The notes beneath the pieces were generated by a model, which ran no database searches, was not told the DNA's origin, and was given only the letters and a program-made list of their open reading frames with translations. A DNA stretch of 28,714 bases from a virus. The stretch spans positions 1 through 28,714 of IMG/VR virus record IMGVR_UViG_3300036390_000006; one strand, given 5' to 3'. Both the position numbers and the translations under genes were made by a program. Shown here piece by piece: positions 2,967 through 28,185 of the stretch. Position 1 is the first letter of the stretch; every line of letters begins with the position of its first letter.

Positions 2967-2973
2967 GGCCGCC

Positions 2974-3577: not shown

Positions 3578-3596
3578 CAGCGCACCCAATGCATCC

Positions 3597-6082: not shown

Positions 6083-6084
6083 GG

Positions 6085-9123: not shown

Positions 9124-9164
9124 GGCTCGTCTCCTCGTGATATTGATAAAGTCTCGGCAGCCTC

Positions 9165-11707: not shown

Positions 11708-11716
11708 AAAGAGCCC

Positions 11717-12889: not shown

Positions 12890-12987
12890 GGGATCTGTTC
12901 CTCGACAGGAATGAAAAACGGATCGGGCCGCCTTCAAAGGTCCGCCCGGGTCTCCTCTGCGCACACTCTCAGATTCCTCTGGCCGCT

Positions 12988-13608: not shown

Positions 13609-13647
13609 GTGCATTCTCCTGCCGTACGCCAAAAATCCGCGCAGCCC

Positions 13648-13755: not shown

Positions 13756-14730
13756 ATGAACGATCTCATCACCAAAGCCCGCGCCATCCCGACGCCCCAG
13801 CCGCAACCGACGCTCACCGTCAATCCCGTTACCCTGCCGGCGCCTGCTCGCGGCCGTCCGCTTGAGCTGCGCATCACCGCGCCGATCTCCGGCGACAAAC
13901 TGCCGATCATCCTGCTCTCGCACGGCCACGGCCCCTCGCTCTATATTCCCTCCAAGGATGGTTACGGCCCGCTCGTCGATTTCTACGCCGCCCATGGTTT
14001 CGTCGTCATCCAGCCGACCCATGCCAATTCCAAGGTCGCAGGCCTCGGCCACGATGCGCCCGGCTATCCCTTCTTCTGGCAATCGCGCCTCGATGACATG
14101 ACCCTGATCCTCGACAACCTCGCCGCCATCGAACAGGCCGTGCCAGTGCTCGCCGGCCGGCTCGACCATAGCCTCGTTGCGGCCGTCGGCCATTCGCTCG
14201 GCGGACAGACCGTCGGCATGCTGCTCGGCGCCGGCCTTACCGACACCGCCGACCCAGCCGTCACCCGCGTCCGCCGTCCGGAACCGCGCCTCAAGGCCGG
14301 CGTGCTTCTCGCCGCCCCCGGCCTCGGCGGCGACAGCCTCAGCGATCACGCCCGTCAGAACTACACCACGCTCAACCCGGATTTCTCGACGCTTGCCACC
14401 CGCACCCTGGTCGTCGCCGGCGATGCCGACGACAACCCGCATCTGACGCCCCGCGGCGCCGACTGGCATGTCGATCCCTATCGCCACGCCCCAGGCGCGA
14501 GAGCCTTGCTCACCCTCTTCGGCGGCAAACATGGCCTCGGCGGCATTGCCGGCTACGACGCCAAGGAAACCGATGACGAGGATCCCGAGCGCCTTGGCGT
14601 CACCCAGCGCCTGACGCTCGCCTGGCTGAGAACAGCGCTAGACATCGATGAAAACAGCTGGCCGATCGCAGTGGAGGCGCTCGAAGCAGGGGCTAAAGAC
14701 ATCGGCCGTGTGGACATCAAGGCGAACTGA
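13756..14730 (+). CDS. Alpha/beta hydrolase (lipase/esterase-type)
   Basis: A 324-aa cytoplasmic protein (no signal peptide seen) with GGAGG 8 bases before ATG 13756. The nucleophile elbow is GHSLGGQ in VAAVGHSLGGQTVGM, an oxyanion-type HGHGPS follows strand 3, and LVVAGDADDNPHLTP with GGKHGLGG gives the likely acid and His. The layout resembles dienelactone-hydrolase, PAF-acetylhydrolase or chlorophyllase-like esterases. The real substrate is unknown. The neighbouring TetR suggests induction by a small molecule related to the substrate. A weak hairpin follows at 14741-14771. Confidence 0.88.
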   Translation: MNDLITKARAIPTPQPQPTLTVNPVTLPAPARGRPLELRITAPISGDKLPIILLSHGHGPSLYIPSKDGYGPLVDFYAAHGFVVIQPTHANSKVAGLGHDAPGYPFFWQSRLDDMTLILDNLAAIEQAVPVLAGRLDHSLVAAVGHSLGGQTVGMLLGAGLTDTADPAVTRVRRPEPRLKAGVLLAAPGLGGDSLSDHARQNYTTLNPDFSTLATRTLVVAGDADDNPHLTPRGADWHVDPYRHAPGARALLTLFGGKHGLGGIAGYDAKETDDEDPERLGVTQRLTLAWLRTALDIDENSWPIAVEALEAGAKDIGRVDIKAN

Positions 14731-15165: not shown

Positions 15166-15786
15166 TCAAGCCACCAGCCCCGCCCGGATCGCCGCATCAA
15201 ATGTTCTGGCCGTCACCGCGATCTTCTTCGCCCGGTCCGTCCCGTTGACGATTTTCCGCGCTCCGATCCAGTCCGCCGTCGTTCCCGAGAAGAAGTCGGA
15301 CAGCCGGGCGCCCGAAAACAGCCCCTCGGTCATGCCCACCACGAGAATGGTCGAGGCCACGTCCGGCCTGAGCGCCAGATCCGGTTCCGCCACGAGATCG
15401 AGCCCGGTCACCCGGCTCATCTTCGCATAATTCTCCCGATGGGTGATCTGCACCAGACCTCGGCCATAGTAACTGCGGCCCTCCGGGTCCCGCCGCCAAT
15501 AAGGCATCGTCACCGTCGGGAGGCGGCCCGCCCGCCAGGCTCGCTCCAGCCGCGCCACGGCCTCCTCGTCGGTCGGCGCAAAGGTCTCGCGCACCGCCTG
15601 CATCGTGCCGCCCGTCTCGTGATGCGCCGTCGCCAGCATATAGGCGAGCCAGCGAGGTTCGGCCCAGCCGCGTGCGCAAAACCGCGTCAGCACGGCCTCG
15701 ATGCCCTCCACCTGTCCCTGGCCGAGCCGCCCGCCGAACACAGCGTTGCGCAGCCCCGCGAAGACGATTCGCCGGTCGATCCGCAT
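15166..15786 (-). CDS. GH19-type (chitinase-fold) endolysin
   Basis: A 206-aa protein with CGAGGAATT before ATG 15786. The GH19 lysozyme pattern is ATAHHETGGTMQAVRET (catalytic Glu in HHETGG), then SYYGRGLVQITHRENY and a substrate-cleft NGTDRA near the C-terminus. Family members of this size in phages cut peptidoglycan. It lies 70 bp upstream of the Dabb gene on the same strand. No holin or SAR signal is visible in it. Its place in the GTA cluster, between g2 and g3, suggests a possible lysis role in particle release, but RcGTA itself is lysed by genes outside the cluster. Confidence 0.88.
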   Translation of the reverse strand: MRIDRRIVFAGLRNAVFGGRLGQGQVEGIEAVLTRFCARGWAEPRWLAYMLATAHHETGGTMQAVRETFAPTDEEAVARLERAWRAGRLPTVTMPYWRRDPEGRSYYGRGLVQITHRENYAKMSRVTGLDLVAEPDLALRPDVASTILVVGMTEGLFSGARLSDFFSGTTADWIGARKIVNGTDRAKKIAVTARTFDAAIRAGLVA

Positions 15787-16201: not shown

Positions 16202-16274
16202 GATCCCCTCACCAACAACATCGAGGACTTAGCCCGATCAGGGTTAAACCTCAGATTTCGTTGGTGAGGGGATC
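16202..16274. repeat. Repeat family R3, palindromic copy at the terminase 3' end
   Basis: GATCCCCTCACCAAC and GTTGGTGAGGGGATC are perfect 15-bp inverted ends around an inner region with GAGGACTTAGCCC and TTAAACCTCAGAT. It is a compact fold-back version of the R3 repeat and begins 22 bp after the terminase stop codon. Confidence 0.8.
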
Positions 16275-16295
16275 GGTACAACAGGCACACCCATC

Positions 16296-16421
16296 TCACA
16301 CCCCCCGTATACGTGGCTCGCCGCCACCCTCCAGCATCAGCGCCGTCAGCGCCCAGACCAGCGCATCCAGCCGATCCGGCGAGCGGCCGTTCGACAATCC
16401 CTCCGGCCCGAAGTCACACAT
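16296..16421 (-). pseudogene. terL: 3' fragment of the GTA large terminase, cut off by the element
   Basis: Reading on the minus strand from the ATG inside the attachment core gives 41 codons: MCDFGPEGLSNGRSPDRLDA, then LVWALTALM and a Gly-rich tail. SPDRxDALVWALT is the conserved C-terminal motif of terminase large subunits and carries the last acidic residue of the RNase H-like nuclease centre. The fragment is in the same phase relative to the 8-bp core as the upstream piece at 26569-27936. Precise excision would therefore restore a 497-codon gene. Standing alone it has no ribosome site and is probably not translated. Confidence 0.88.
16414..16421. other. Left attachment core (attL) of the integrative element
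   Basis: TCACACAT is followed on the right by TTCATC, the end of the integrase gene. The same 8-mer occurs at 26561-26568 beside the other half of the terminase gene. The crossover lies somewhere inside these eight bases. Flanking bases on the host side (CGAAG) differ from those at the other end, as expected. Confidence 0.8.
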
Positions 16422-16422
16422 T

Positions 16423-17571
16423 TCATCTTGCACCGCCTATCCTATTGCTTTTGCTAGATTTCTGTTTTGCATTTTTCGAACGTTTTGCAGTCGCCGTCTT
16501 TGCCTCGGTTTCGAGCATCTTGAGAACGCCCGCCCTCGCGGACTCTCGACGATCGACGAAGCGGGAGTAACGCTCGACCATAGGCGGCGACATTCCGACG
16601 ATGTCGCAGATCTGGGAAACCGAAACGCCGCCCGCTCGCAGACGACCTACAGCCGTCGCCCGGAGGCCGTGAAGGGTCACGTTCGCCAGCCCCGCGATCT
16701 TCTCGCGCTGTCGCCGGAAGTGCACAGAGAAGTGTTTGCGGGTGAAAGGCCGCCCCATGGCTCGCCCCTCTCCCTGCTTCAGGAAAGGCCCCGGCTCGTC
16801 CGGCCAGGTGCGCATTTCCGCCTCCAGCTCGGGCAGGATCGGGCAGAAGATCGGAACCTTGCGCTTCTGGGTGATGATCTCGAAACCACCTTCCACGATG
16901 TGCTGCGGCCCCAGCCGCACGACATCGCTGCCGCGCAATCCTGTGTATCGATACAGGAAGAAGCCTCGACGAACCGAGCCGGTCAGCTTCGCCTCGGCAA
17001 TCGCCAACTGCTCAGGCGTCCAGGGCTGATGACCGCCCTCGGCTTTGTGCGCCGATATTCCCTCGGTGATCATGACGGCCGAAAGCTCATGCTTGCGGAG
17101 CCATTTGCCAAACGACCGCATGGCCGAAAGGAAATTGTTCGCGGCTCCCGGCTTCTTGTGCATCGAGTTGAACAGAGTTTCGACATGCAGAGGCTTCAGA
17201 CCGCCAGGCGGAAGTTCGCCCCATGCCTTCCGAGCCGGCCGTATCGACTGATCGTAAAACATGACGGACGAGCGCTGAATTCCCCTCTTTGCCTGCACGT
17301 CAATCAGCCATTTATCGATGGCGTCTGAGATCGTTAGCGCAGGAGCAGAGTGTTCTTCCCCGAGAAGCTGACGATATGCCACCGCGAACTCAACCGATTG
17401 CCTGTTACGAGGCAGCGAATGGCGCGGGCCCGGGTCTGCGCTGCCCCGGCCCTTCTGAAAGTAGTAATAGGTCTTGCCGCGCGAAGTTACGGCGAAGACG
17501 TGATCGGGCAACTCGATCGAGGCTCGCTTAGGTTTGGGCGGCATGGTGCGCCCCCGCGAGATATGGATCAT
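16423..17571 (-). CDS. int: Tyrosine recombinase (integrase)
   Basis: Up to 382 aa from ATG 17571; ATG 17544 (MPPKPKR, 373 aa) is also possible and follows a G-rich stretch. A SAM-like N-terminal domain (about 77-165) precedes the catalytic domain. Numbered from 17571, catalytic residues are R213 in TGLRGSD, H301 and R304 in LHGLRA, and Tyr335 in MVERYSRF. The usual second His of the GH motif is Met327 (VGMSPP), a tolerated change in some families. It overlaps the excisionase gene, and its stop is next to attL, the normal place for an integrase. It should catalyse insertion into and excision from the terminase gene. Confidence 0.92.
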   Translation of the reverse strand: MIHISRGRTMPPKPKRASIELPDHVFAVTSRGKTYYYFQKGRGSADPGPRHSLPRNRQSVEFAVAYRQLLGEEHSAPALTISDAIDKWLIDVQAKRGIQRSSVMFYDQSIRPARKAWGELPPGGLKPLHVETLFNSMHKKPGAANNFLSAMRSFGKWLRKHELSAVMITEGISAHKAEGGHQPWTPEQLAIAEAKLTGSVRRGFFLYRYTGLRGSDVVRLGPQHIVEGGFEIITQKRKVPIFCPILPELEAEMRTWPDEPGPFLKQGEGRAMGRPFTRKHFSVHFRRQREKIAGLANVTLHGLRATAVGRLRAGGVSVSQICDIVGMSPPMVERYSRFVDRRESARAGVLKMLETEAKTATAKRSKNAKQKSSKSNRIGGAR

Positions 17572-17800
17572 CAGCGACCAGTCGCCCCGTTGGTCGCTCG
17601 CCGATGAAAGCTTGAACGGCTTCCCAGTTATGACGGACCACCCCAGGAGAGATGACTATTGGAGGAGGCAACAGCCCCCTCCTCACCATATCGCGGACCG
17701 TGCTTTCGGAGACGTCCAGCTCGATCGCCAATGAGGCAGAGGACATCATCGAGGGCGGTCGGTTGATGCGGATCTGAGCACGCTTCGATTTCGACGTCAT
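17528..17800 (-). CDS. Excisionase-like helix-turn-helix protein
   Basis: A 90-aa protein with a MerR/AlpA-type HTH: SASLAIELDVSESTVRDMVRR, then LLPPPIVISPGVVRHNWEAV, the winged part that ends in a Trp-containing helix. Such short proteins act as recombination directionality factors or as activators of the integrase gene. Its start overlaps the upstream gene by four bases and its end overlaps the integrase gene, so the three are co-expressed. The function as excisionase is inferred from size, fold and place. Confidence 0.75.
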   Translation of the reverse strand: MTSKSKRAQIRINRPPSMMSSASLAIELDVSESTVRDMVRRGLLPPPIVISPGVVRHNWEAVQAFIGERPTGRLVADDPYLAGAHHAAQT

Positions 17801-18552
17801 GAACGCGCCCCCAATTCACATCCGCGCGCCCGAAACGTAAGGTCGCTCAGAAGCTCAAGTGTCGCCTCGATCCTGTGGACTGGAAGCATCAGGGACGCCT
17901 TCAGGTCGTCACAGAATCGCAACGGCTCTTTGGCGTCGATCAATGAAAAGTCCGAAAAGAAGTTCATGCGCTCGTCCAGGGCGTGGTGCGCAATTTTCAA
18001 GCAGCCTAAAACGCTGATGAACGCGTCATACACTTCATCCACCTCGGACACGGTCGCTCTGCAGGATGCACGGTTAATCTCTGCTGATGAGGGCAAGTTG
18101 ATCGGTTTCGCCTCAAGATCAAAGTAGAGGCGAGCCGCGCGGACCAGCGCCAATCCGAGTTCGTCGTCACCATTTGCCAGTTCATCGTCGGCCAGGCGCA
18201 GCGCCGCCAAGGCCTCATGACGTGTCACCGCTCCCCGTTCCCAGCTCTTCAGGCGACCGTAGGCATCGCCGTAAGTCGATGAGACAAAGGCATCGCTATC
18301 CTGCTCTTCTACAGATCCCCGGCAGAACGCCTCCTTTCCCTCAAGGTAGGCGTTGATTGTCTGAAGGAGACCGGGAGCCGCCTGTTCATCCGAGGTCGGC
18401 TCCCGGTCAGTCGCGGCCGGCGCGTTTGCGGCGACATTGCCGGCGGCGAATGTGCTCCGCACCAGTTTCAGTGCGGAAATCAGATCGTCTGTCTTTTCGA
18501 CAACGGACAAGCTTGCGGCGTGGGCCGCATTTGATGTATGAAGACTGTGCAT
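17797..18552 (-). CDS. Unknown 251-aa protein, first gene of the integrase operon
   Basis: AAAGGGATC lies just before ATG 18552, and the stop overlaps the excisionase ATG. The sequence is acidic and mostly helical. After an Ala-rich N-terminal third come GDAYGRLKSWERGAVTRHEA, a Leu/Ala-rich helix pair and a C-terminal helical part (HRIEATLELLSDLTFRARG). No signal peptide, membrane segment or catalytic motif is visible and I recognise no family. Being first in the integrase operon suggests a role in control of integration or in host interference, but nothing proves either. Confidence 0.7.
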   Translation of the reverse strand: MHSLHTSNAAHAASLSVVEKTDDLISALKLVRSTFAAGNVAANAPAATDREPTSDEQAAPGLLQTINAYLEGKEAFCRGSVEEQDSDAFVSSTYGDAYGRLKSWERGAVTRHEALAALRLADDELANGDDELGLALVRAARLYFDLEAKPINLPSSAEINRASCRATVSEVDEVYDAFISVLGCLKIAHHALDERMNFFSDFSLIDAKEPLRFCDDLKASLMLPVHRIEATLELLSDLTFRARGCELGARS

Positions 18553-18577
18553 TGTTGATCCCTTTCGTGGGGTTAGG

Positions 18578-18617
18578 AAAAGCCGACGCTGGTTCTCAGG
18601 CCTGAGCGTCGGCTTTT
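18578..18617. terminator. Bidirectional terminator between the RHH gene and the integrase operon
   Basis: AAAAGCCGACGCT (18578-18590) and AGCGTCGGCTTTT (18605-18617) form a perfect 13-bp stem with T-runs on both strands. The right arm encodes the last residues of the small RHH protein. On the minus strand it would end the RHH transcript before the 251-aa gene, so the integrase operon is either attenuated or has its own promoter. Confidence 0.8.
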
Positions 18618-18772
18618 TGCGTTTCTGGGGACGCCCCGTAGGCGCGGTTGAGCTGGTAGATGATTTCTGCGTTCATTGACCGAAAGTTATGCTCGGCAGC
18701 TTCCTTGATGCGATCTCGCATCCCGTCAGGGAGCCTTAAGGGGAACTGCTCTTTCAAGGTACGGTTTTCCAT
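18596..18772 (-). CDS. Arc-type ribbon-helix-helix repressor, 58 aa
   Basis: ATG 18772 is chosen because GAGGAG lies 6 bases upstream; an upstream ATG and GTG would place the start inside an operator. The Arc/Mnt fold is clear: strand EQFPLRLPDGMR, helix DRIKEAAEHNFRS, then MNAEIIYQLNRAYG. It is divergent from a second RHH protein with the same core (MRDRIK ... RSMNAEII), and three shared dyads lie between them. By family and place it is a repressor of itself, of the divergent operon, or both, acting as one arm of a two-repressor switch. Confidence 0.88.
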   Translation of the reverse strand: MENRTLKEQFPLRLPDGMRDRIKEAAEHNFRSMNAEIIYQLNRAYGASPETQKADAQA

Positions 18773-18781
18773 AACACTCCT

Positions 18782-18798
18782 CATATCCACTGGATATG
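18782..18798. promoter_or_regulatory. RHH operator 1
   Basis: CATATCCA-C-TGGATATG is a perfect 8+1+8 dyad, centred 18 bases upstream of the small RHH start codon. It is the best copy of the TATCCAnTGGATA consensus and overlaps the 5' leader of that gene. Confidence 0.8.
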
Positions 18799-18805
18799 TC
18801 TCAGG

Positions 18806-18820
18806 CTACCCATTGGATAG
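18806..18820. promoter_or_regulatory. RHH operator 2
   Basis: CTACCCA-T-TGGATAG is the dyad with one mismatch. On the minus strand TTGACG (18832-18827) and TAGCCT (18808-18803) could be a promoter for the small RHH gene with an 18-base spacer. This operator lies inside it, consistent with autorepression. The promoter call itself is weak. Confidence 0.7.
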
Positions 18821-18843
18821 GCCTTGCGTCAAGCGCTAATTGC

Positions 18844-18854
18844 ATCCAATGGAT
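18844..18854. promoter_or_regulatory. RHH operator 3
   Basis: ATCCA-A-TGGAT is a perfect 5+1+5 dyad ending 4 bases before the start codon of the larger RHH gene. A bound repressor would cover the ribosome-site DNA and block transcription start or passage there. The centres of operators 1-2 are 23 bp apart and those of 2-3 are 36 bp apart. Confidence 0.75.
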
Positions 18855-18858
18855 AGGT

Positions 18859-19599
18859 ATGAGCGAAGAGGTGAACCGCGCGTGGAAAGATCAGTATATG
18901 CTCCGCTTCCCGGAGGGGATGCGAGACCGGATTAAGCTTTCCGCAGAAGTGACGGGCAGGTCGATGAATGCCGAAATCATTCAACGGCTTAAATGGACGT
19001 TCGACGATTCCGAGGAACACGCCCTTCGTATCGTGCTACCCGTTGAGACGTTGAACGCGCTCATGACTGACGCCGCTATCAACGGCCAGTCGGAAGAAGA
19101 ACTTGTCGTCGAAATTGTCAAAGCCAATTATGGCCAGGCGGAGTTGAACAGGTCGTTCGATGCCGTCAACAAGATGGCCGATGAGAACACGAAGCTCTCG
19201 GAGCTGGTGAGCCATATGAAAGAGAAGGAAGACGCTGATTTCCTCCTCTACTACAGCAAGGTTGTGCAACTCCGCCAGCTGGCACAAGCAATTATCGCGG
19301 CCGAGGCGGACGTGCCGGACCATATCGCAACGACTGCGCACGATTTAGATGCGCTCGGGAAGGCTGAGATGGAGACCTTGGCGCATCGGCATGCTGATGC
19401 GCTCTTCGTGAAGAAGCTGGCAGAACACAGCAGGCGTCTTAGGGAAGATATAGAGGAGAACAGCGGCGATTCTGAAGCTGGAAACGCTGATCAAACCGAC
19501 GGCGACGCCCAGCATTGGGATTGGAAGAACAGCCAAACCGACACGCCGCAGCCGGTCGAAAAGCCGACGAAAACGCCAGGTAAGCGCCAAAAACGTTGA
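18859..19599 (+). CDS. RHH-domain regulator with long helical C-terminus, 246 aa
   Basis: ATG 18859 is preferred. The upstream ATG 18796 would put operators 2 and 3 inside the coding region (reading THWIG and QWIGM). The N-terminal Arc-like domain is DQYMLRFPEGMRDRIKLSAE with RSMNAEIIQRLKWTF. Then follow a second domain (LRIVLPVETLNALMTDAAIN) resembling another RHH-like unit, a coiled coil (about 95-195) and an acidic, Pro-rich, low-complexity tail ending in a basic KRQKR. It is the first of at least three plus-strand genes in the centre of the element. It probably controls the lysogeny-type switch together with the 58-aa protein. Confidence 0.85.
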   Translation: MSEEVNRAWKDQYMLRFPEGMRDRIKLSAEVTGRSMNAEIIQRLKWTFDDSEEHALRIVLPVETLNALMTDAAINGQSEEELVVEIVKANYGQAELNRSFDAVNKMADENTKLSELVSHMKEKEDADFLLYYSKVVQLRQLAQAIIAAEADVPDHIATTAHDLDALGKAEMETLAHRHADALFVKKLAEHSRRLREDIEENSGDSEAGNADQTDGDAQHWDWKNSQTDTPQPVEKPTKTPGKRQKR

Positions 19600-19614
19600 C
19601 ACCGCGGCCCCATA

Positions 19615-19653
19615 TTCTGATGTCCAATAAGCTCATGTTTTCGGACATCAGAA
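19615..19653. promoter_or_regulatory. Perfect 11-bp inverted repeat after the larger RHH gene
   Basis: TTCTGATGTCC (19615-19625) and GGACATCAGAA (19643-19653) are perfect inverted arms with a 17-base A/T-rich spacer. ATTTTT follows 4 bases later, so it could be a plus-strand terminator. The long loop also fits an operator pair. It lies 32 bp before the next gene. Confidence 0.55.
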
Positions 19654-19684
19654 CCGATTTTTGCACCGCCCAGGACCATGGCCG

Positions 19685-19882
19685 ATGAAGGTCCCCAAAC
19701 TTTCCCGATCACTCGTCACCCACTACGCAGCGCTTGCCAAATCCGAGCAAGTCGCGATCGAGATCAAGGTCGAAGGCGCGTCCTTCCGCATCACGCCCTT
19801 CGACGCAGCGGCAGAAGCTCGCAACAGCAGCAGAAGCGAAGGCATCGAACAGCCAAGAACCGACGGCCTTAAATCGTGGTGA
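19685..19882 (+). CDS. Small 65-aa unknown protein
   Basis: ATG 19685 gives MKVPKLSRSLVTHYAALAKS followed by EQVAIEIKVEGASFRITPFD, a helix and two amphipathic strands. An overlapping frame starting at 19678 gives a basic, low-complexity product and is judged a shadow. No strong ribosome site is seen. It is on the same strand as the RHH gene and the next gene. The family is not recognised, although similar short proteins occur in rhizobial islands by my recollection. Confidence 0.55.
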   Translation: MKVPKLSRSLVTHYAALAKSEQVAIEIKVEGASFRITPFDAAAEARNSSRSEGIEQPRTDGLKSW

Positions 19883-19942
19883 CGCATCCGCAACCAACCG
19901 TCTAAACTGCGCAATAGTTGATAGCTCAAGAGGATTGAGAAA

Positions 19943-20263
19943 ATGAACGTCAGCGACTTCGTGAAGGACACGTTCGAGCAGATCATCGACGGCGTCAAAC
20001 GAGCCAAAGCTGCAGGGGGCAACGCAGAAGGCATAGCCGCCGTTCAACGCTTCAAGATCGCCAGTCTTCCAGATTCCCTCATTCAGGACTCCTCCGGCGC
20101 GATACATACGATCGTTGATTTCGATCTTGCCGTCACTGAGGGGAGTTCATTCGAAGGCAAGACGGGTGTCAGCGTCGTTGCATTTAATGCAGGCGGATCC
20201 GGGACAAAGGAAAGCCAGACCGTGTCTCGCGTCAAGTTCTCGATCCCGATCACGTTCCGCTAA
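19943..20263 (+). CDS. 106-aa protein resembling Trypco2-type domains
   Basis: CAAGAGGATTGAG precedes ATG 19943. The N-terminal helix (VSDFVKDTFEQIIDGVKRAK) is followed by strands IHTIVDFDLAVTEG, GKTGVSVVAFNAGG and VSRVKFSIPITF. This order (helix, VxFDxAVT, GxxGVxV, SRVKFxxP) resembles the trypsin co-occurring domain 2 family, which is found with proteases in predicted conflict systems. The likeness is from memory and the function is unknown. It is the last plus-strand gene of the central operon, followed by two hairpins at 20277-20323. Confidence 0.7.
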   Translation: MNVSDFVKDTFEQIIDGVKRAKAAGGNAEGIAAVQRFKIASLPDSLIQDSSGAIHTIVDFDLAVTEGSSFEGKTGVSVVAFNAGGSGTKESQTVSRVKFSIPITFR

Positions 20264-20276
20264 GGTTGCGTCCCCA

Positions 20277-20323
20277 ACTGGCTAATTTAGCCAGTCCGCT
20301 CAACTGCGGAATCTCCGCAGTTG
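20277..20323. terminator. Two tandem perfect hairpins between convergent operons
   Basis: ACTGGCTAA-T-TTAGCCAGT (20277-20295) and CAACTGCGGA-ATC-TCCGCAGTTG (20301-20323) lie just after the 106-aa gene and 93 bp beyond the end of the minus-strand winged-helix gene. No T-run is attached. As a pair between converging transcripts they probably act as a double terminator or as RNA 3'-end protection. Confidence 0.55.
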
Positions 20324-20415
20324 GAAAAGGTCCCGGATGCGGACCATTTCAAATATTCCTGCTGAAAATGTTTTCGCGTGAAACGCTTTTCCGAAACCGT
20401 CGCAGCCGACCACGG

Positions 20416-20628
20416 TTAAGCCCGCCGAATCACGTTCTCTTCGCCCTGCCTGCCCTTCACCTTCAGCGCCCCGAGCTGCACCGCCTTGCCGATCGCGCTG
20501 CGCACTGTAGACCGACTAAAGCCGGACAGCCGAGCAAGCTCGGAGTGCGCCCGAGTGCAAGCGCCGCGCCTGTCGATCTCGTCTACGACGATTTCGAGGA
20601 TACGGCGCTCTGCAGTCGTGTAGCTCAT
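20416..20628 (-). CDS. Small winged-helix DNA-binding protein, 70 aa
   Basis: ATG 20628 is chosen because it falls 4 bases after the stop of the Ntn-hydrolase-like gene; an upstream in-frame ATG at 20670 would overlap it more. The sequence has a GntR/MarR-like winged helix: AERRILEIVVDEIDRRG, helix pair HSELARLSGFSRSTVRSAIG, then KAVQLGALKVKGRQGEENVI as the wing. It is the final gene of the long structural operon. It may regulate late genes or act on a host promoter. Confidence 0.75.
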   Translation of the reverse strand: MSYTTAERRILEIVVDEIDRRGACTRAHSELARLSGFSRSTVRSAIGKAVQLGALKVKGRQGEENVIRRA

Positions 20629-20632
20629 GAGG

Positions 20633-21331
20633 TCAGGCCGCAGCGCTCGCCAATGCAGCCGGAGCCGCATGGGGGTCGATAGGCTGGCCGATCACATCCG
20701 GCCAGGTCCGAATGCGTTTGGTGGTCACGCCTGCCGCCCGGATGACGGTATGATCGACATGGCAGCCAATGCCATAGACATCCGGCAGAAGGCTTTCTGC
20801 AGGGTTGCCCGCCTTCCGCAGCCGCAAGATCTCCATCAGGTCCGCGCCCTGATCTTCCAGACCTTGGCAAAGACTCTCGATCGAGACGCCGCCAGCCCTG
20901 ATATCATCGAGGTCTATCAAAGGCCCACCAATGACCTCGCGACCGAGCGCGTAAAGCGTCCACGGCTCCAGCCCGTCGCCCAGCGCAACGCTGCTGAAGC
21001 GGATCGTGAGCGGCCCCTGCTCTTCATGGATCGCACAAATGACGATCTCGAAAGGCGGAACGCCGAGCTTCGATTTCTGGCTCTCCAGATTCGTCTCCAG
21101 GCGCGAGAAAACCTCGGCCACCGATTTTGAGAACTGCGTAAGTGCCACGATGTAGGCGGCGAAGAGGTTCACCACGTCGGACGACCCGCGCCCTGTGACG
21201 GCGATCGGCAGCCGCTCAGATCGGGAAACCTTTTCTGCAGCTTCCAACAGAATGCCGTCCTCGTTGTAGATCGCGCCGTCGGTCAGCATCTCGATCCGAT
21301 CCTCATAGGCAATGCAAACATAAGCGCTCAT
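20633..21331 (-). CDS. Proteasome-like Ntn-hydrolase candidate, 232 aa
   Basis: Its ATG overlaps the tape measure stop by four bases. Counting Ser2 as residue 1, the acidic residue in MLTDGA is position 17 and the Lys in EAAEKV is position 33. This matches the Thr1-Asp17-Lys33 centre of proteasome beta and HslV subunits, with Ser as nucleophile. A Gly-rich TGRGSSDVVNLF lies near the position of the proteasome Gly47 loop. Removal of Met before Ser is the normal aminopeptidase outcome. The function is inferred; it could be a tail-associated protease or only a structural relative of the fold. No family name is claimed. Confidence 0.65.
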   Translation of the reverse strand: MSAYVCIAYEDRIEMLTDGAIYNEDGILLEAAEKVSRSERLPIAVTGRGSSDVVNLFAAYIVALTQFSKSVAEVFSRLETNLESQKSKLGVPPFEIVICAIHEEQGPLTIRFSSVALGDGLEPWTLYALGREVIGGPLIDLDDIRAGGVSIESLCQGLEDQGADLMEILRLRKAGNPAESLLPDVYGIGCHVDHTVIRAAGVTTKRIRTWPDVIGQPIDPHAAPAALASAAA

Positions 21332-22944
21332 TGGTGATTCCTCATGTCCAGAGTGTAGGTCTGGCCGAGCAGCGCACCGCCCCGGCCTCCAATGCCACCG
21401 CCAAAGATGGCGTTAACGAATTGATCAATGCCGCCCTCGGCAATCTTGCTGATCACGCGATCGAGGGCGTTCGCCAGGATGTCGGCACCGCTTTTCCCGG
21501 CCCTGAGGTCCGAGACGATACCGCCCAGGACGTCCTTCGCGACGCTCTGCAGCTCCTGCATGGCCTCCTGGTTTGCCTTCAGCGCCTCGCGCTCCGCATA
21601 GGTCGCCTCTACAAGCTGTTCGATCTTCGCCCGCTGCTCGTCTGTCGCGGCCGATCCGGCGCGGCGCAGCGCGTTCGCCACCTCGCGCTCCTGAGAGGTG
21701 GCCCCGATGAGGCTTTGCTCGAATTCAAGCTGCGTGATCAGATCGGCAACCGCCTTCTTCTCGCGCTCCGCATCGCTGACGGCGCTCGACCGCCCACCGC
21801 CTCCCTTGCGCCGCGCATCCTTCTCCGCCTCGATTTGCACCTGAGACTGGGTGGCATTGGCCCGGGCGTTCTGAATGGCCATGGCATCCCCGGTGATCTT
21901 GCCATCGACGCTCTGTAGGGGCGTAAGCGTCCCCAGGGCGGGAAGGCTCTGAGGCGGGATCGACACACCTTCACTTCGGAACCTGCTCGCCTGCCCAATC
22001 GCCGCGAGGATCTGCTGAGCGAGATTGGCATAAGCAGCAGCCAGGTCGTCGACCGCAGGCGTGGCGACGCGATCAAGAGCGCCGGCCAAAGCTTCCTGCA
22101 CGGATTTCACGTCCTCCGCAGTTGCTGCGCCTTCTTCCAGCCTGTCACGCAGATCACCGAACGCATTGCCAAAGTCTCGGATGAACGTCGGATCGACATT
22201 CGCTCCGCTCAGGTCACGATTGACGCGGGCAAAAAGCGGCGTGAGCTGCCTCAGCTCCTCCGCCAGTCCCTCATACTGTTCCTTGGCCGGGATTTCCGCA
22301 GCAGCCGAGCGTTCGCTCTCCTCTTCGACACGCTTTAGCTCATCGGCATATTCCTTGAGCGCCGGCATTGCCTCGCCCCATCGACTGGCAACGCGCTGGA
22401 TCAATTCCGCCTGTTTTTCGAGGGATAGCTCGACATCCTCCGAACTGGAGAGCAGCTCCGTGAAGTACTGGATCGCACTACCGCCCAAGCCGATTATTGC
22501 GATCGTCGCGAGAGATACCGGATTGAGCAGGCTTGTGAATGCACCTGCCAGCGCCGAGAGCGTCCCGCGAACGCCTGCCCCGCTTCCCAGCGCCTGGTTG
22601 ATCTGGCTGCCTTGCTGGAGAGCTATCAGGAACGGCGACTGCCCACCGGCCAACTGCACGCCGATGTCGTTGAACTGAGCGGCGAGGTTCGAAGTCTGCG
22701 TACGAGAGGCCGCCATCGCCCTATCCAGTTGCCTCGCACCATTTACCGCAACACCAAAGGCCCGATTGGAGTTCGCGGCCACGTCATTGAACGCGGCGGA
22801 GGAGGCCTTGTCGACCACTCCGAACGTATCTGCCAACACCTTCGTATCACGCTGGGTCTGACCGATCAGGGTCTTGAGCTGCCGCTGGATCTGCCGCGTA
22901 TCAGCGCTGATGCTCAAAACGAGCTGTTCGTTATCGGTTGCCAT
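21328..22944 (-). CDS. Tail tape measure protein (lambda-like TMP_2 type)
   Basis: A 538-aa protein with GAGAGAGCC before ATG 22944. The region about 50-185 matches prophage tail length tape measure text: GARQLDRAMAASRTQTSNLA, AQFNDIGVQLAGGQSPFLIA and LQQGSQINQALG, then a hydrophobic stretch LLNPVSLATIAIIGLGGSAI that may insert into the host membrane. Long coiled-coil regions follow (about 190-300 and 355-470). It is much longer than the GTA tape measure (202 aa), so this element would specify a longer tail. It overlaps the downstream gene by four bases. No tail tube or chaperone gene is seen beside it. Confidence 0.9.
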   Translation of the reverse strand: MATDNEQLVLSISADTRQIQRQLKTLIGQTQRDTKVLADTFGVVDKASSAAFNDVAANSNRAFGVAVNGARQLDRAMAASRTQTSNLAAQFNDIGVQLAGGQSPFLIALQQGSQINQALGSGAGVRGTLSALAGAFTSLLNPVSLATIAIIGLGGSAIQYFTELLSSSEDVELSLEKQAELIQRVASRWGEAMPALKEYADELKRVEEESERSAAAEIPAKEQYEGLAEELRQLTPLFARVNRDLSGANVDPTFIRDFGNAFGDLRDRLEEGAATAEDVKSVQEALAGALDRVATPAVDDLAAAYANLAQQILAAIGQASRFRSEGVSIPPQSLPALGTLTPLQSVDGKITGDAMAIQNARANATQSQVQIEAEKDARRKGGGGRSSAVSDAEREKKAVADLITQLEFEQSLIGATSQEREVANALRRAGSAATDEQRAKIEQLVEATYAEREALKANQEAMQELQSVAKDVLGGIVSDLRAGKSGADILANALDRVISKIAEGGIDQFVNAIFGGGIGGRGGALLGQTYTLDMRNHQ

Positions 22945-23045
22945 GATGGGGCTCTCTCGTCAGTGACATCAAGGATTGCGGGGGTGAGGGAGGCGACGGA
23001 AGACCATCGCCATCCCTCGGATGGGCTGGCCGAGGCATGCCAGCG

Positions 23046-23282
23046 TTACTCGATGACTGGAAACGGCGCTAACTGCATGCCGTTCTCATCGAAGCAGGCC
23101 CGATAGGCGGCGATCTGCGTTTCCGTAGACAACTTGAGGCGTGGATCGTCTTTCCACTGCTCCTAATGTCCATAACCGGGGAAGGTGCTCGGTTGAATGT
23201 AGACGTTGACCCAGGGCTTCGTGTCTGCCATCGCACCCGAAGACTTTCGCGGATCGCGGTGCCAAAGATAAACGCTTTTCAA
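23046..23282 (-). pseudogene. Small gene with an in-frame amber codon
   Basis: A frame from TTG 23282, overlapping the upstream stop as TTGA, reads KSVYLWHRDPRKSSG, AMADTKPWVNVYIQPS and ends FPGYGH at TAG (23165-23163). The same frame then continues EQWKDDPRLKLSTETQIAAY and ends PFPVIE at TAA, 38 more codons. Both halves have normal coding character for this element. Either the gene is broken, the short 39-aa product is the true one, or the amber codon is read through. A neighbouring gene (24722-24988) uses TAG as its stop, which argues against global recoding. Family unknown. Confidence 0.55.
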
Positions 23283-23458
23283 TTGACGCCCTCCCATACC
23301 TGCTCCCATTCAGGGCGGACCTCTCGAAATACCTCTTCAGTGATAGGTATCGGCAGGGATTGGCAGCGCGTACCGATCAGCTCATCACCGCTGTAGAGAT
23401 ATGCAACCACCGTCCGTCCGTCTTCGCAGAGGACAGCCTCAGCCTTTGGATTACTCAT
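23279..23458 (-). CDS. Small 59-aa protein of the structural operon
   Basis: This gene is too short for usual ORF lists. ATG 23458 overlaps the upstream stop as ATGA. The product, MSNPKAEAVLCEDGRTVVAY then LYSGDELIGTRCQSLPIPIT and a C-terminal EVRPEWEQVW, is acidic with a predicted beta character. Its end overlaps the TTG of the next frame. The overlaps and codon use support translation. No family is recognised; it lies between capsid and tape measure where a phage would have connector or tail genes. Confidence 0.68.
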   Translation of the reverse strand: MSNPKAEAVLCEDGRTVVAYLYSGDELIGTRCQSLPIPITEEVFREVRPEWEQVWEGVN

Positions 23459-23655
23459 ATCCGTACGCTCCCAGCCTGCACCCTGACCTTCGGTTTCTCC
23501 GGCTGCTTTCCTTCGAGAAGGTCGAGCCGTTCCTTGTGGTTTTTGATTGTCTCCGTGATGGTGTCCACGGCGCTGTAGAGTTCTTCCCGTGTCGGCGGTG
23601 AACGCATCGCTGCGGCACCGACTTTCTCACGGATATGGGCGCTCACGCTGCTCAT
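23455..23655 (-). CDS. Small helical protein downstream of the capsid, 66 aa
   Basis: ATG 23655 overlaps the capsid stop as ATGA and its own stop overlaps the next ATG in the same way, so translation is coupled on both sides. The product has an N-terminal helix (SSVSAHIREKVGAAAM), a coiled-coil heptad stretch (ELYSAVDTITETIKNHKERL DLLEG) and a basic Pro-containing tail. It resembles small coiled-coil proteins of head assembly in size and place, but no family was identified. Confidence 0.65.
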   Translation of the reverse strand: MSSVSAHIREKVGAAAMRSPPTREELYSAVDTITETIKNHKERLDLLEGKQPEKPKVRVQAGSVRI

Positions 23656-24668
23656 GGTGTCGGTGTCCAATCGATGTCCGCCAACTCCGCGACCGCATTG
23701 CCCCGGATCTTGTCGACCCCGAACGAGACCACCACCCGCATGGCAACCGAGTTCGTCTGAAAGAGGCTGACAAGCTCGCTCGCAGTCGGCGCTGCGCTTT
23801 CGTTGGTGGGGGCGTCATCGAGTTGGATCGACGCCTGGTTCGAAACGTCAAGCTCGATGCCATCAGCGTTGGCAGCGACCGAAGCAGCGTTGATCAGCCG
23901 AAGTGTACCAGCGGGGATCGCGGCGCTTACCATCGCAGGGAGGCCAAGTAGCTCGCCACCCAGCGGGGTCATGCCTTTGAAGGGATCGCCCTGAAGCGAA
24001 AAGCCGTTCGCTACGTCCGGAGACATAGCCCACAGAAGGGTCCCGGCCCCTGAGCTATTGACAGACTGAAGCATCTGCAAAACGTGTCCCTCTTCGACTG
24101 GTCCATCTCCGGCCGTCAACGGCGTCACGCCCAGCATAACAGTCGCGAAAAATGCCTGATCAACCACATCAGAGACTGCGCCGCGAAGCTCAGTATTCAC
24201 GAGGCTGTAGGAGCTCTCCTCCATCGACCGCGCAACCTCGTCGGTGACAACGATCAGCGCCGCCGCCGTGGTCGGCTCTAGGGTGGGCGTGTCGAGCGTC
24301 AGCTTGCTTACCGGAATTGGCTTGCCCTCGCCCCTCGACCAGGCGGTCGCACCTGCGACAACAACGCCCAAAGGTATGCGCAAGGGCACCCGGGCAAAGC
24401 CGCTGTCGAGAAGGCGGAAGAAGATCGAGCGATTTCGGAGACTGCCGAAAAACGCGTTGGAGGAAATTCGCCAGTCTCCCAGCACTTCACCGTAGGAAGC
24501 GTCCGACATGCTGCCAGCGCCAACGGCTGCCTTCAGAATCCGAGGAATGCGAGGGGATGATTTGCGGGCCTCAGCGATCGAGCTTGCCACCGATAGGTTA
24601 CCTCGGGCAGCAAGAAGGGTTTTGACGACGACGCCGAGGTCGCTGCTGATGGGATCGATGTTTGACAT
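23652..24668 (-). CDS. Phage major capsid protein (HK97 fold) of the element
   Basis: A 338-aa protein from ATG 24668 with AGGAAC upstream. A longer frame starts before a terminator and is rejected. HK97-type capsid marks are an N-terminal helical arm, VVVAGATAWSRGEGKPIPVS (the AWxGEGxxxP loop), PTTAAALIVVTDEVARSMEE, a dimer region VVDQAFFATVML and, in the C-terminal half, GGELLGLPAMVSAAIPAGTL. It differs in sequence from the GTA capsid. No scaffold domain or maturation protease is present nearby, which is unusual. The gene follows an intrinsic terminator, so it may have its own promoter or depend on antitermination. Confidence 0.88.
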   Translation of the reverse strand: MSNIDPISSDLGVVVKTLLAARGNLSVASSIAEARKSSPRIPRILKAAVGAGSMSDASYGEVLGDWRISSNAFFGSLRNRSIFFRLLDSGFARVPLRIPLGVVVAGATAWSRGEGKPIPVSKLTLDTPTLEPTTAAALIVVTDEVARSMEESSYSLVNTELRGAVSDVVDQAFFATVMLGVTPLTAGDGPVEEGHVLQMLQSVNSSGAGTLLWAMSPDVANGFSLQGDPFKGMTPLGGELLGLPAMVSAAIPAGTLRLINAASVAANADGIELDVSNQASIQLDDAPTNESAAPTASELVSLFQTNSVAMRVVVSFGVDKIRGNAVAELADIDWTPTP

Positions 24669-24702
24669 AGCGTTCCTGCCTTGTTGTGTTGGCGGACGAT
24701 GG

Positions 24703-24733
24703 AAAAAGAAACGCGAGTGCGCTACTCGCGTTT
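24703..24733 (-). terminator. Intrinsic terminator before the capsid gene
   Basis: On the minus strand AAACGCGAGT and ACTCGCGTTT (arms 24733-24724 and 24718-24709) form a 10-bp stem with a 5-base loop, followed by CTTTTT. It overlaps the stop codon of the preceding HTH gene and lies 35 bp before the capsid start, separating early from late genes. Confidence 0.78.
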
Positions 24734-24988
24734 CTCGCGTTTGTAGGCCTGCAGAGCAGAAAGGCTGATCATCCACCGCCCACCACGCTTCTCACCCATG
24801 GCCTTTGCGCGGCAGAGCCACCGGACAGTGTCATGTGGTAGGTCGAAGCGTTCGGCGGCAGTCGAGGTGTCAACCAGGTCGTCCTCCTCGATCGCTGGGA
24901 TTACGGGAGACGGAAGTTCGGTCAGCGCTTCCTTGAGCGCGATTAGATCCGCGACGATGCGGTCAATGATGGAAAGCGGGTCTTTCAC
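24722..24988 (-). CDS. Small HTH protein (excisionase/MerR-like), 88 aa
   Basis: GTG 24988 overlaps the upstream stop as GTGA and is the best start; a GTG two codons earlier is possible. An N-terminal helix (LSIIDRIVADLIALKEALTE) may dimerise. The C-terminal part is a DNA-binding domain: DTSTAAERFDLPHDTVRWLC then GEKRGGRWMISLSALQAY. The latter is the Trp-containing wing seen in excisionase-type HTH proteins. It could be a transcription switch for the late genes or a second recombination factor. It ends with TAG. Confidence 0.75.
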   Translation of the reverse strand: MKDPLSIIDRIVADLIALKEALTELPSPVIPAIEEDDLVDTSTAAERFDLPHDTVRWLCRAKAMGEKRGGRWMISLSALQAYKREKRE

Positions 24989-25344
24989 TTGCACAGATCT
25001 TCCTCCGCCAAACACGATTGACCTGACTTCGCTCTGAGCATCTGCAGGATCTCGTCTCCGGTCGGCCTTCTGCCGCCGAACATGTCGAGCAGCTTTTGTC
25101 CCGCCAAGCGGCCCTGATGCCGATATGCCGCGCCATATCTGAGCTTTCGCTCGCGGCGACAGGCGTCGGAACATGTGCTTGCCCGTGAGGTGGCCGGCGA
25201 GAAATCGTGGCCGCAGATGACGCAGGTCGCCGTCCTCACCGGCGGTGAAATTAAAGGCTTAGAAACGGTCCGACTTTCCGACGTCATTTCTATTTTCGTA
25301 ATCTTTTCAGTGCCTTGAAAAAGGTCTGACTGTGATCTGGTCAT
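24985..25344 (-). CDS. Four-cysteine zinc-finger-like protein, 119 aa
   Basis: The motif is C41-x2-C44-x13-C58-x3-C62 in CVICGHDFSP ... STCSDACRRERK, a typical zinc-binding FCS-like finger followed by a basic patch. A C-terminal part (TGDEILQMLRAKSG) is helical. Proteins with this finger occur in rhizobial phages and islands, sometimes as HNH nuclease remnants; no HNH motif is visible here. The start at ATG 25344 is preceded by a Gly-Ala-rich leader with GAAAAG near the ATG. It overlaps the next gene by four bases. Confidence 0.7.
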   Translation of the reverse strand: MTRSQSDLFQGTEKITKIEMTSESRTVSKPLISPPVRTATCVICGHDFSPATSRASTCSDACRRERKLRYGAAYRHQGRLAGQKLLDMFGGRRPTGDEILQMLRAKSGQSCLAEEDLCK

Positions 25345-25455
25345 CTTTTCATGCCTCTTTCGAAAACAAATCGGCTCGAATAAAAAACCTCCGAATGAGA
25401 TGGGCGCGGGTGGGGAAGCCGGGCCTTTCGAACTTTTGCCCCTCCCCCCCCGACC

Positions 25456-26295
25456 TCAGTGCGTTCGCGCATTCGCCGCCTCCGCATGCCAGTTGAGCCG
25501 AGCTTGCCGCATCCCGTTGGCGATAAAGGCGAGGCCGTTTCCTCGTCGCCGCATCTCCTCGCGAATGGCCGCGTTCAGCGTACTCTCATCCAGCCATGTC
25601 CAGACTTCTGCACCTCGATCGGGCATCCCGATTATCGCGGCGTGAACCCGCTCCGAGGCCGTGCTGAAGGCTGCGCCATGTCGAGAACTACCTGCGGTTG
25701 CCGCCCTCTCCCTCGCCTCGTAATTGATCCGATCGGGTGCCGCCTCCACCCTCCTCCCAAGCCCGTGCAACGGCTGCTCAGGATGCAGCGTTTCGGCCTG
25801 TTCGCTGCCGAGTTTCGACGTGTCCGGAAGAGAGATGGGTTTATTACATGGGTTACTTACATGGGTTTGTCGGACATTTTCGCCCGGGGTAACCGGACAT
25901 TTTCGCCCGGGGTCAGCGGGCATTTCTGCCCGGTTCTCATCGCCCCGTTCAGGATCGTCGATGCAGCGCATTCGTCTGTCCCAATCCCCTATGATCTCAC
26001 GAAACTTGGACCATTGAGGACGGTACTCAGCGCGGAAAGACTTGCCGCCATGACTGCTCTTCTGGAACAGACCTTGTGCGCAAAGCTCGTTCGTGGCCCG
26101 CCTAACTGTCTTTTCGTCGATACCGAGCAGCGCGGCCAGGCGCGCAATGCTCGGATCGCACTGGCCGGTTCTCTTGTTAAAATGGTCGAGGATGGCCCCG
26201 CCGACGCGCATATCAGCGGCTGACAAGCCGGGAGCTATCAGGAGGGCTTTTCGCCCGATGGCAACGTCGTGCCGTTCAAAGCCTGCCTTGCTCAT
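25456..26295 (-). CDS. HTH replication-initiator-type protein, 279 aa
   Basis: ATG 26295 overlaps the upstream stop as TGATG. The N-terminal winged helix is FERHDVAIGRKALLIAPGLS, then DPSIARLAALLGIDEKTVRR, ATNELCAQGLFQKSSHGGKS, resembling RepA/lambda-O-type initiators of rhizobial islands. The middle is low-complexity and encoded by two arrays of direct repeats. The C-terminal part (EVWTWLDESTLNAAIREEMR with RMRQARLNWHAE-type end) is helical. The repeats inside the gene look like an origin. This makes a replication-initiator role likely, but it is inferred and a pure transcription factor is not excluded. Confidence 0.75.
   Translation of the reverse strand: MSKAGFERHDVAIGRKALLIAPGLSAADMRVGGAILDHFNKRTGQCDPSIARLAALLGIDEKTVRRATNELCAQGLFQKSSHGGKSFRAEYRPQWSKFREIIGDWDRRMRCIDDPERGDENRAEMPADPGRKCPVTPGENVRQTHVSNPCNKPISLPDTSKLGSEQAETLHPEQPLHGLGRRVEAAPDRINYEARERAATAGSSRHGAAFSTASERVHAAIIGMPDRGAEVWTWLDESTLNAAIREEMRRRGNGLAFIANGMRQARLNWHAEAANARTH
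25835..25873. repeat. Three tandem 13-bp A/T-rich repeats
   Basis: ATGGGTTTATTAC, ATGGGTTACTTAC and ATGGGTTTGTCGG follow one another with an exact 13-base period. They adjoin the 23-bp repeats and lie inside the replication-type HTH gene. Thirteen is not a multiple of three, so the pattern is conserved at DNA rather than protein level. It resembles the melting 13-mers of iteron origins. Confidence 0.75.
25871..25939. repeat. Three tandem 23-bp iteron-like repeats
   Basis: CGGACATTTTCGCCCGGGGT begins at 25871 and again at 25894. A weaker copy, CGGGCATTTCTGCCCGG, begins at 25917. The period is 23 bases, roughly two helical turns and not a multiple of three, so the encoded amino acids differ among copies. 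Together with the 13-mers this looks like a replication origin embedded in the initiator gene, as in lambda O. Confidence 0.78.
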
Positions 26296-26564
26296 CACGC
26301 ACCGTCATAGCGCAGCGCGTGAGCGGTCTTGCAGGCGGCTATAGCCTCCGCAGCGGTGAGGTTGAACCGCGATCGCATAAATGGAATGATCGCACCGACC
26401 ACATGATCACGGTTAGCTGCCAGCCAGATTGCTGCTTCAGTGACCTGCGAAAGCGTTTTGCAGTCTACCGCTTCGTTCTGCTGCCGTTCACTCTTGGTAC
26501 CGGGTGCGCCTGAAACCGCATGTGTCTGATTAAATGAAACTTTCGGGCTTGATGGCGTTTTCAC
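26295..26564 (-). CDS. Small protein starting inside the attachment core, 89 aa
   Basis: The frame has no ATG inside the element. The earliest internal start is GTG 26564, within the 8-bp core; the open frame extends upstream into the terminase gene in another phase. The C-terminal half (CKTLSQVTEAAIWLAANRDH, then IIPFMRSRFNLTAAEAIAAC) is well-folded helical text resembling small proteins next to replication HTH genes in rhizobial islands. The N-terminal 35 residues are poor in structure. When integrated, GAGGA of the terminase gene lies 8 bases before the GTG. It is co-transcribed with the HTH gene. Confidence 0.6.
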   Translation of the reverse strand: MKTPSSPKVSFNQTHAVSGAPGTKSERQQNEAVDCKTLSQVTEAAIWLAANRDHVVGAIIPFMRSRFNLTAAEAIAACKTAHALRYDGA

Positions 26565-27936
26565 ACATCTGGTCCTCGAGCTCCACAAACCGGCCCGCAT
26601 GCAAAACCCGGCCCTGCTCGTAAAGTGCCGCCACAGGCTCGGCGCGCAAAAACTTGCCGCGTGTCGCCCGGACCGTCGTTACCGGCAGCCGCGCCTCAAT
26701 GCCCTCCAGCACGGCGCGCACCATGTCGCCGCCCTGGTTCACCTCGGCCACCACCCGGTCGGCCTCGAACCGCCGGAACGCACTCACCACCGCCCGCGCC
26801 CAGCCCGCCGGGCCCTGCCCTTCCACCGAACAGTCCGACAACACAACCGCCTGGCCATTCTCCTTCAGCCCCGCGACCACAATGCCGCAGCAGGCGGATA
26901 GCCCACCCGCCGGCGGATCGACCGCGACCACGATGCGCCGCAGGGGCTCAGCCAGCTTGACGACGATCTCGTCGAGCCGCGCGCGCTTCCACAAGCCATC
27001 CGCCCGGTCCTCGATCAGCTCGCCGTCCAGTTCCTGCCGCCCCAGCCTTGTCCCGCCATAGCGGCTCTGGAGCGCGCCCAAAAACCCCGGCGCCAGATGC
27101 GCCGCATTGGCAGCCGTTGCCATCCGCGTCAGCCGCGTTCCCTCATCCGCCATCAATCGCTTCAGCAGAGGCACCGGCCGTGGCGTCGTCGTCACCACCT
27201 GGCGCGGATCCTCGCCCAGCCGCAGCGCAAACTGCAGCATGTCGAAGGTCTCATCAGCATGTTTCCATTTGGCGAGCTCGTCGCACCAGGCGAGATGAAA
27301 TTGCGGCCCGCGCAGACTTTCGGGATCTTCCGAGGAGAAGATCTGCGCGATCGCCCCGTTCGGCCAGACCAGCCGCCGCCGCGAAATCTCCACCTCCGGC
27401 CGCATGCGCCGCGCAATCCTTGCCAGCCCCGAGGCCCCGTCGATCATCACCTCGCGCGCATCGCCCAGCGTTTCCGCCACCAGCGCAATCCGCAAATCCG
27501 TCCGCCGCCCCGCCGCAAGCACCTGCGCCTGCACCCATTCGGCCCCGGCCCGCGTCTTGCCCGATCCCCGCCCGCCGAGGATCAGCCAGCTCAGCCAGTC
27601 GCCTTCAGGCGGAAGTTGTTCGCGGCGGGCCAGAAGCCTCCAGTCGCGGGCGAGAAAGGCGAGATCGGAGGGCGAGAGTTCCGAGAGGTCGAGCCGCCCC
27701 CGGTGCGGCCCCGGCTGCACACCCTTGTCCGCTCCTGCCGGGACCAATAATCCTGCCCGCGCGCGGGTTTCAGGCGCCGTAGCCTCGATGATCGCCCCAC
27801 CCAGCACTTTCGACCTACGGATGCCGTCCGCGATCCCGATCAACCCCTGGTTTAGATCACCAACAATGCCGAGCGCCGATGTCTGCGCGTTCGCCGTCCG
27901 ATCCCTTGTCCGCCTGCCCAGGGATTTCGGCGTCAT
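26530..27936 (-). CDS. terL: GTA large terminase, N-terminal part truncated by the element
   Basis: The frame gives 468 aa. The first 456 codons are terminase and the last ones (ENAIKPESFI) come from the element. The ATPase has Walker A GGRGSGKT (121-128) and Walker B WCDE (217-220), with TTTPRP coupling motif near 250. The nuclease domain begins at VAVDPPAG with Asp340 and continues through AEVNQGGD. The final acidic motif (SPDRxDA) is missing here and lies at 16296-16421. Residues 1-80 have little family character, so the true start may be later; ATG 27936 lies 45 bp after repeat R3. Loss of the last motif should abolish headful DNA cleavage while perhaps leaving ATPase function. Confidence 0.9.
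   Translation of the reverse strand: MTPKSLGRRTRDRTANAQTSALGIVGDLNQGLIGIADGIRRSKVLGGAIIEATAPETRARAGLLVPAGADKGVQPGPHRGRLDLSELSPSDLAFLARDWRLLARREQLPPEGDWLSWLILGGRGSGKTRAGAEWVQAQVLAAGRRTDLRIALVAETLGDAREVMIDGASGLARIARRMRPEVEISRRRLVWPNGAIAQIFSSEDPESLRGPQFHLAWCDELAKWKHADETFDMLQFALRLGEDPRQVVTTTPRPVPLLKRLMADEGTRLTRMATAANAAHLAPGFLGALQSRYGGTRLGRQELDGELIEDRADGLWKRARLDEIVVKLAEPLRRIVVAVDPPAGGLSACCGIVVAGLKENGQAVVLSDCSVEGQGPAGWARAVVSAFRRFEADRVVAEVNQGGDMVRAVLEGIEARLPVTTVRATRGKFLRAEPVAALYEQGRVLHAGRFVELEDQMCENAIKPESFI
26561..26568. other. Right attachment core (attR) of the integrative element
   Basis: TCACACAT, identical to 16414-16421. To its right is CTGGTCCTCGAG from the terminase gene; to its left is element DNA. 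On the minus strand the core reads ATG TGT GA in terminase phase, giving Met-Cys followed by Glu here and by Asp in the remnant. Crossover within the core thus restores the host protein exactly. Confidence 0.8.
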
Positions 27937-27981
27937 CGGCAGTCTCCCGAAAGCATCCGCTGGCCGTGTGGCAACAGAACC

Positions 27982-28185
27982 GATCCCCTCACTTGCGAAA
28001 TCTGAAGTTTAGGCGGCTTGCGCTCGCCTAAGCCTTCGATTTCGCTTTCTCCCCCACAGTGGGGGGAGAGGGAGCGCGAGGCCAGCCGCGTCGACACCTC
28101 TCCCCTCTGTGGGAGAGGTTACAAAATCGAGGGCTTAGCCCGATCAGGGCTAAACCTCAGATTTTGTTGGTGAGGGGATCCGTTC
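27982..28185. repeat. Repeat family R3, diverging pair of copies (right)
   Basis: Two copies, 27982-28080 and 28094-28185, point away from each other, with outer ends GATCCCCTCACTTGCG and GTTGGTGAGGGGATCCGTTC. The first is almost identical to the reverse complement of 11441-11540 and the second to that of 11623-11707. They fill the 304-bp gap between g1 and the terminase, genes that normally adjoin. Nothing else is seen in this gap. Confidence 0.82.

Follow-up and report, generated by a model that had tools for sequence, protein, structure and literature searches.

A phage-satellite-like element very probably uses a fixed attachment site inside the large terminase gene of an RcGTA-like cluster

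The stretch of DNA analyzed here (the window; positions 1–28714, 28,714 nucleotides) is catalogued as a virus, yet it consists mostly of a bacterial GTA cluster together with an inserted element. The GTA genes lie on the minus strand. Family matches identify the portal (g3, 11717–12964), the head maturation protease (g4, 8548–9273), the major capsid protein (g5, 7202–8551), and the head-tail adaptor and head closure proteins (g6 and g7, 5747–6654). The tail genes (major tail, g10, g10.1, a short tape measure [g11], a DUF2460 gene [g12], and the baseplate hub [g13]; 1–3879) run off the window edge, beyond which g14-g15 would lie. The interrupted cluster thus has the g2-g13 order of the RcGTA-like (type I) GTAs of alphaproteobacteria, with g3 to g13 otherwise present. 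We assign it to that group, as a prediction from genes alone, by this order, by wide presence in the bacterial family (see below), and by the lack of an integrase of its own: the only integrase recognized in the window is that of the insert. A GH19 endolysin-like gene lies downstream of the terminase (15166–15786, minus strand) and occupies the same position in genomes G001, G098, and G395. Genes of host type (MFS transporter, TetR regulator, and alpha/beta hydrolase-like) are found within the cluster at 3695–5038, 12988–13632, and 13756–14730.

The large terminase gene (g2) is present in two parts. The 5′ part is a truncated ORF of 468 aa (26530–27936, minus strand) made of 456 terminase codons and 12 codons contributed by the element; the 3′ part (16296–16421, minus strand, beginning DFGPEGLSNGRSPDRLDALVWAL) comprises the last 41 codons and the stop of the restored frame. 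Each break is marked by the same core, TCACACAT, at 16414–16421 (left core, between the integrase end and the terminase 3′ part) and at 26561–26568 (right core, between the terminase 5′ part and the element; ATGTGTGA in the terminase sense). A scan of both strands found TCACACAT at only these two places in the window, spaced 10,147 bp apart. The integrase stop is one base away from the left core, and the right junction is spanned by an ORF (26295–26600, minus strand) whose relatives occupy the corresponding end in G001, G098, and G395. Excising the 10,147 bp in silico yields one 497-codon GTA large terminase frame on the minus strand, from 27936 to a stop at 16296. An earlier sequence-only reading of the window had described the identical cores, the in-phase division into 456 and 41 codons, and the position of the integrase stop; all three were reproduced by our scan, joining, and ORF coordinates.

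The element opens at the left core with a 382-aa tyrosine integrase (16423–17571, minus strand; phrog_1, E 1e-29), so classified because residues R213, H301, R304, and Y335, corresponding to the catalytic R...HxxR...Y, are invariant across seven family members. Next to it is an excisionase/AlpA-like HTH protein (17528–17800, minus; phrog_66), which likewise precedes the integrase gene in those relatives that were examined. There follow a 251-aa protein without a family (17797–18552, minus), an Arc-like ribbon-helix-helix regulator (18796–19599, plus) with related proteins in the elements of G001, G395, and contig L033, a 106-aa protein with a weak Trypco2 match (19943–20263, plus), and a 232-aa protein without a family (20633–21331, minus). 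The remaining genes, all on the minus strand, encode a 538-aa tail tape measure protein (21328–22944; phrog_8892, TMP_2), an HK97-type major capsid-like protein (23652–24776; phrog_617), an HTH_17 excisionase-like protein (24722–25174; family match), a 119-aa ORF with a zinc-finger-like cysteine motif and no family match (24985–25344), and a replication initiator-like protein (25456–26298; phrog_391, HTH_36). PADLOC returned no match for the window's uncharacterized cargo genes.

To see the site without an insert, we used 395 genomes from the bacterial family to which Rhizobium sp. PDO1-076 belongs. A terminase match was present in 308 of them, and among the matches listed nearly all terminases are uninterrupted at the site. 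The closest among these matches, from genome G239, is 84% identical over residues 1–497 and has an empty site with a single TCACACAT. The window aligns with G239 in two blocks, 16294–16421 and 26561–27987, which overlap in G239 by exactly 8 bp (16637–16644), these being the core; when joined, the window flanks align with G239 over 607 bp without a gap. The sequence-only reading had pointed to an uninterrupted terminase in a close relative as a check on the join, and G239 supplies one. It is a fair reference because most of the remaining GTA cluster and the intergenic repeats are common to both. These related repeats are spread across the GTA region (window 3594–3701, 5013–5137, 11441–11733, 16215–16288, and 27977–28185), and the MFS transporter region of the window aligns in G239 too.

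The split removes the end of the nuclease domain. Terminase_6N is complete in the 5′ part, but Terminase_6C is cut at profile position 130 of 155: positions 2–153 are covered in the joined protein versus 2–130 in the truncated one. The lost 41-codon segment holds a SPDR(L/M)DA(L/M)VWA motif that is kept in all intact relatives aligned. Searching the PDB by sequence, using the joined protein as the query, gave nothing useful, and fold comparison was used instead. In a structure model of an intact terminase relative (mean pLDDT 56; the nuclease domain is better, mostly 57–91 per block), the nuclease domain matches that of the G20c terminase (Z 13.3) through model residue 488, and the cut falls after residue 461. 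In terminase nucleases, the third catalytic acid lies in this last helix, which here belongs to the lost segment. Because the nuclease domain is cut and this acid is expected in the lost helix, the truncated terminase has likely lost DNA packaging, and GTA packaging would be off while the element is resident.

An integrase search of the 395 family genomes revealed eight relatives. Those with at least about 46% identity adjoin the same terminase codon in five of five genomes (G001, G098, G395, G003, and G198); in each, the integrase abuts the terminase from residue 454 on, and the 5′ part of the terminase breaks off at ...LED(Q/E)MC. Scanning viral contigs with a single integrase as the query gave no relatives. 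The contigs were then scanned with an integrase profile and with a DNA pattern of the integrase-terminase junction, both of which were productive. The junction pattern matched 19 viral contigs (11 occupied sites and 8 unbroken terminases), and the profile recovered 37 integrase relatives. All 15 of these with at least 46% identity adjoin the terminase 3′ part, versus none of the 22 with 44% or less; more distant relatives are integrated in tmRNA or at other sites. After removal of contigs repeating a genome or one another, about 18 distinct occupied sites were counted, the window included (about 17 related elements besides it). Ten elements are complete, with their two ends on a single contig (L099 and L100 are apparently the same element); they carry ATGTG[C/T]GA at both ends, the C/T base being identical within each element. 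Most complete elements are 10.1–10.8 kb long, and two measure 16.5 and 18.3 kb. Neither of the observations that would have spoken against the proposed attachment site, an intact allele at odds with the join or differing repeats in other copies, was made: the intact alleles fit the join, and the other copies share the core. No carrier besides G001 was found in a class-wide sample of 376 genomes, and no integrase relatives in phage and plasmid collections.

In a tree of 22 integrases, with tmRNA sites assigned by Rfam, the 15 GTA-site integrases fall on one side of a branch with support of 98/97, and the tmRNA-site integrases are on another branch, with support of 100/100. Judged from integrase sequences and their neighbors, this is a lineage dedicated to the GTA terminase site. 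The tmRNA-integrating islands resemble it in their sister integrases (42–45% identity), the same int-xis layout, and, in some, portal and protease genes; they differ in target and in their separate, well-supported integrase branch. Related integrases adjacent to tmRNA were seen at L025–L030, L106, L107, L108, L110, L113, and L118 (alpha tmRNA gene); the tmRNA in the L106–L118 contigs and in L027 was called by sequence similarity only. Several of these loci have portal or protease genes nearby, forming a sister satellite group.

Gene content varies among the elements at the GTA site. Those of G198, G003, and L048 (about 10.2–10.3 kb) encode a rep-like protein, their own terminase (541–639 aa), capsid, protease, portal, xis, and int, and tail genes are absent, which is the gene content of cf-PICIs (ORF lists for all three; family matches for the G198 proteins). 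HNH genes were seen in the G198 and G003 elements; a head-closure protein was identified in the G198 element, with a similar one in L048. The G098 element additionally has a major tail protein, a tail terminator, and a tape measure. The window element and that of G395 have a replication initiator in common (52% identity), and both encode Arc-like proteins and carry tape measure genes. Unlike cf-PICIs, these elements have their attachment site inside a GTA terminase, and the window element itself lacks the TerL, portal, and protease of the cf-PICI module. By its predicted genes, the window element is a reduced form of this satellite-like lineage. In the Rhizobium sp. PDO1-076 element, a cargo protein (L003:647–1573) resembles the PD-Lambda-2_B and CapP profiles and is possibly a defense or regulatory gene.

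Taken together, the cores, the empty site, and the recurrence make it very likely that a phage-satellite-like element has inserted site-specifically into a fixed attachment site of the RcGTA-like large terminase gene and that its lineage is specialized there. By these same three lines of sequence evidence, the tyrosine integrase recombines an attP core with ATGTG[C/T]GA at terminase codons 455–457. The terminase is thereby split after ...LEDQMC: its 5′ part acquires a short element-encoded tail and is cut off from 41 codons that hold the conserved SPDRLDA motif and the final helix of the RNase-H nuclease domain. Precise excision, for which the integrase and the neighboring Xis-like protein are the predicted enzymes, would restore the gene; the sequence-only reading had likewise anticipated restoration on excision. 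The site is probably a conserved, non-essential safe harbor; a mobile element at such a place, for which GTA inactivation would be a consequence or side benefit, probably fits the data best.

A stronger role for inactivation, in which the element gains by disabling a GTA whose production kills the carrier host cell, appears unlikely. That other recombinases hit the same gene (G470 at the same codon; G179, G238, and G310 near codon 222) speaks for such a benefit, but integrases often pick conserved coding or RNA motifs, and the relatives of this one use tmRNA. The G470 insert (L051, L052, and L089) has a sister integrase in inverted orientation at the same terminase codon. In G179 (L085), G238 (L086), and G310 (L087 and L088), the terminase is interrupted near codon 222, in Walker B, between AWCDEL and AKWK; the inserts of G179 and G238 each encode a large serine recombinase along with a small resolvase and a long flagellin (677 and 696 aa), and in G310 the split alone was seen. 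Hits by several recombinase types suggest a general role for the GTA terminase as a target of integration. In L105, a contig that looks like a phage (grouped with L109), an integrase of 54% identity precedes an attP-like core, GACGAAATCGCACA, beyond which come more genes.

The insert could also be an immobile remnant of a prophage or satellite, a dead insertion fixed in the window's host. The window element has a capsid-like gene and a tape measure, with no portal, protease, or terminase among its ORFs, and it may therefore be immobile unaided or partly decayed. We nevertheless regard a dead remnant as rather improbable, given the full-length integrase with its family-invariant residues, the Xis-like gene, and the perfect cores.

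The sequence-only reading had gone further and proposed that the element keeps the GTA off while resident and allows it on after excision, by analogy with comK-type prophages. The geometry is exactly reversible, both terminase parts keep open frames, packaging loss during residence is likely, and the presence of the remaining GTA genes (g3 to g13) in the window fits restoration. Moreover, against G239 the two terminase parts show low dN (0.06 and 0.04) relative to dS (about 0.6). This low dN, however, mostly reflects time before the insertion. The circular attP junction was sought among viral contigs with two patterns: GATGAAATGTGCGAATTTARC gave no match, and AAGATGAAATGTGYGAA matched 31 contigs, eight with an unbroken terminase and none with a related integrase, so that no free circular form was found. 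Carriers make up only 5 of the 395 family genomes (308 with the terminase), so the insertion is not a fixed host trait. In G003, the GTA portal downstream of the element (L021:18466–19365) lacks about 86 residues through an in-frame internal deletion; the GTA of this carrier is, from its sequence, probably dead regardless of the element, which argues against reversibility being maintained there. A regulated switch (active lysogeny), in which host signals would trigger excision and thereby GTA production, in the way suggested for comK- and skin-type elements, is accordingly doubtful. The comK prophages of Listeria, the skin element of Bacillus, and the hlb-converting phages of Staphylococcus do share the site-specific gene split at a short core that excision would mend. 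Those elements are larger and their excision has been shown, whereas here it is predicted from sequence alone, and the interrupted gene belongs to a domesticated phage cluster. Phage-satellite-like is a better name for the element than comK-type full prophage, with several relatives being cf-PICI-like.

It is highly unlikely that the satellites use the host GTA as a helper, with the GTA motor stopped and satellite heads, packed by their own terminase, completed with GTA tails or baseplates. This proposal is unsupported because the head-closure protein of the G198 satellite is about 29% identical to that of the GTA and the other two tested gave no match. An assembly chimera or one-off random insertion, conceivable for a stand-alone virus record, is refuted by recurrence of the same junction in the isolate genome of Rhizobium sp. 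PDO1-076 and in many independent genomes and contigs.

A search of openly accessible papers turned up no element with its attachment site in a GTA terminase, which agrees with the sequence-only reading; within that search, the use of g2 as an attachment site sets the present cluster apart from published RcGTA-like GTAs. A 2024 study on how RcGTA arose from a prophage considers integrases in the vicinity of GTA-like clusters, and its integrase passages name no attachment site of this kind (PMC11409702). The elements described here also call for caution, as the presence of GTA genes in a genome does not equal a working GTA. GTAs have been retained over very long times although the producing cell is killed. 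The existence of a mobile lineage that inserts into the GTA motor gene points to a lasting conflict, or trade, of GTAs with satellites: time and again the lineage interrupts the gene-exchange machinery of its host, which its departure could restore. Natural pairs of occupied and empty hosts may thereby offer a way to measure what GTAs are worth.
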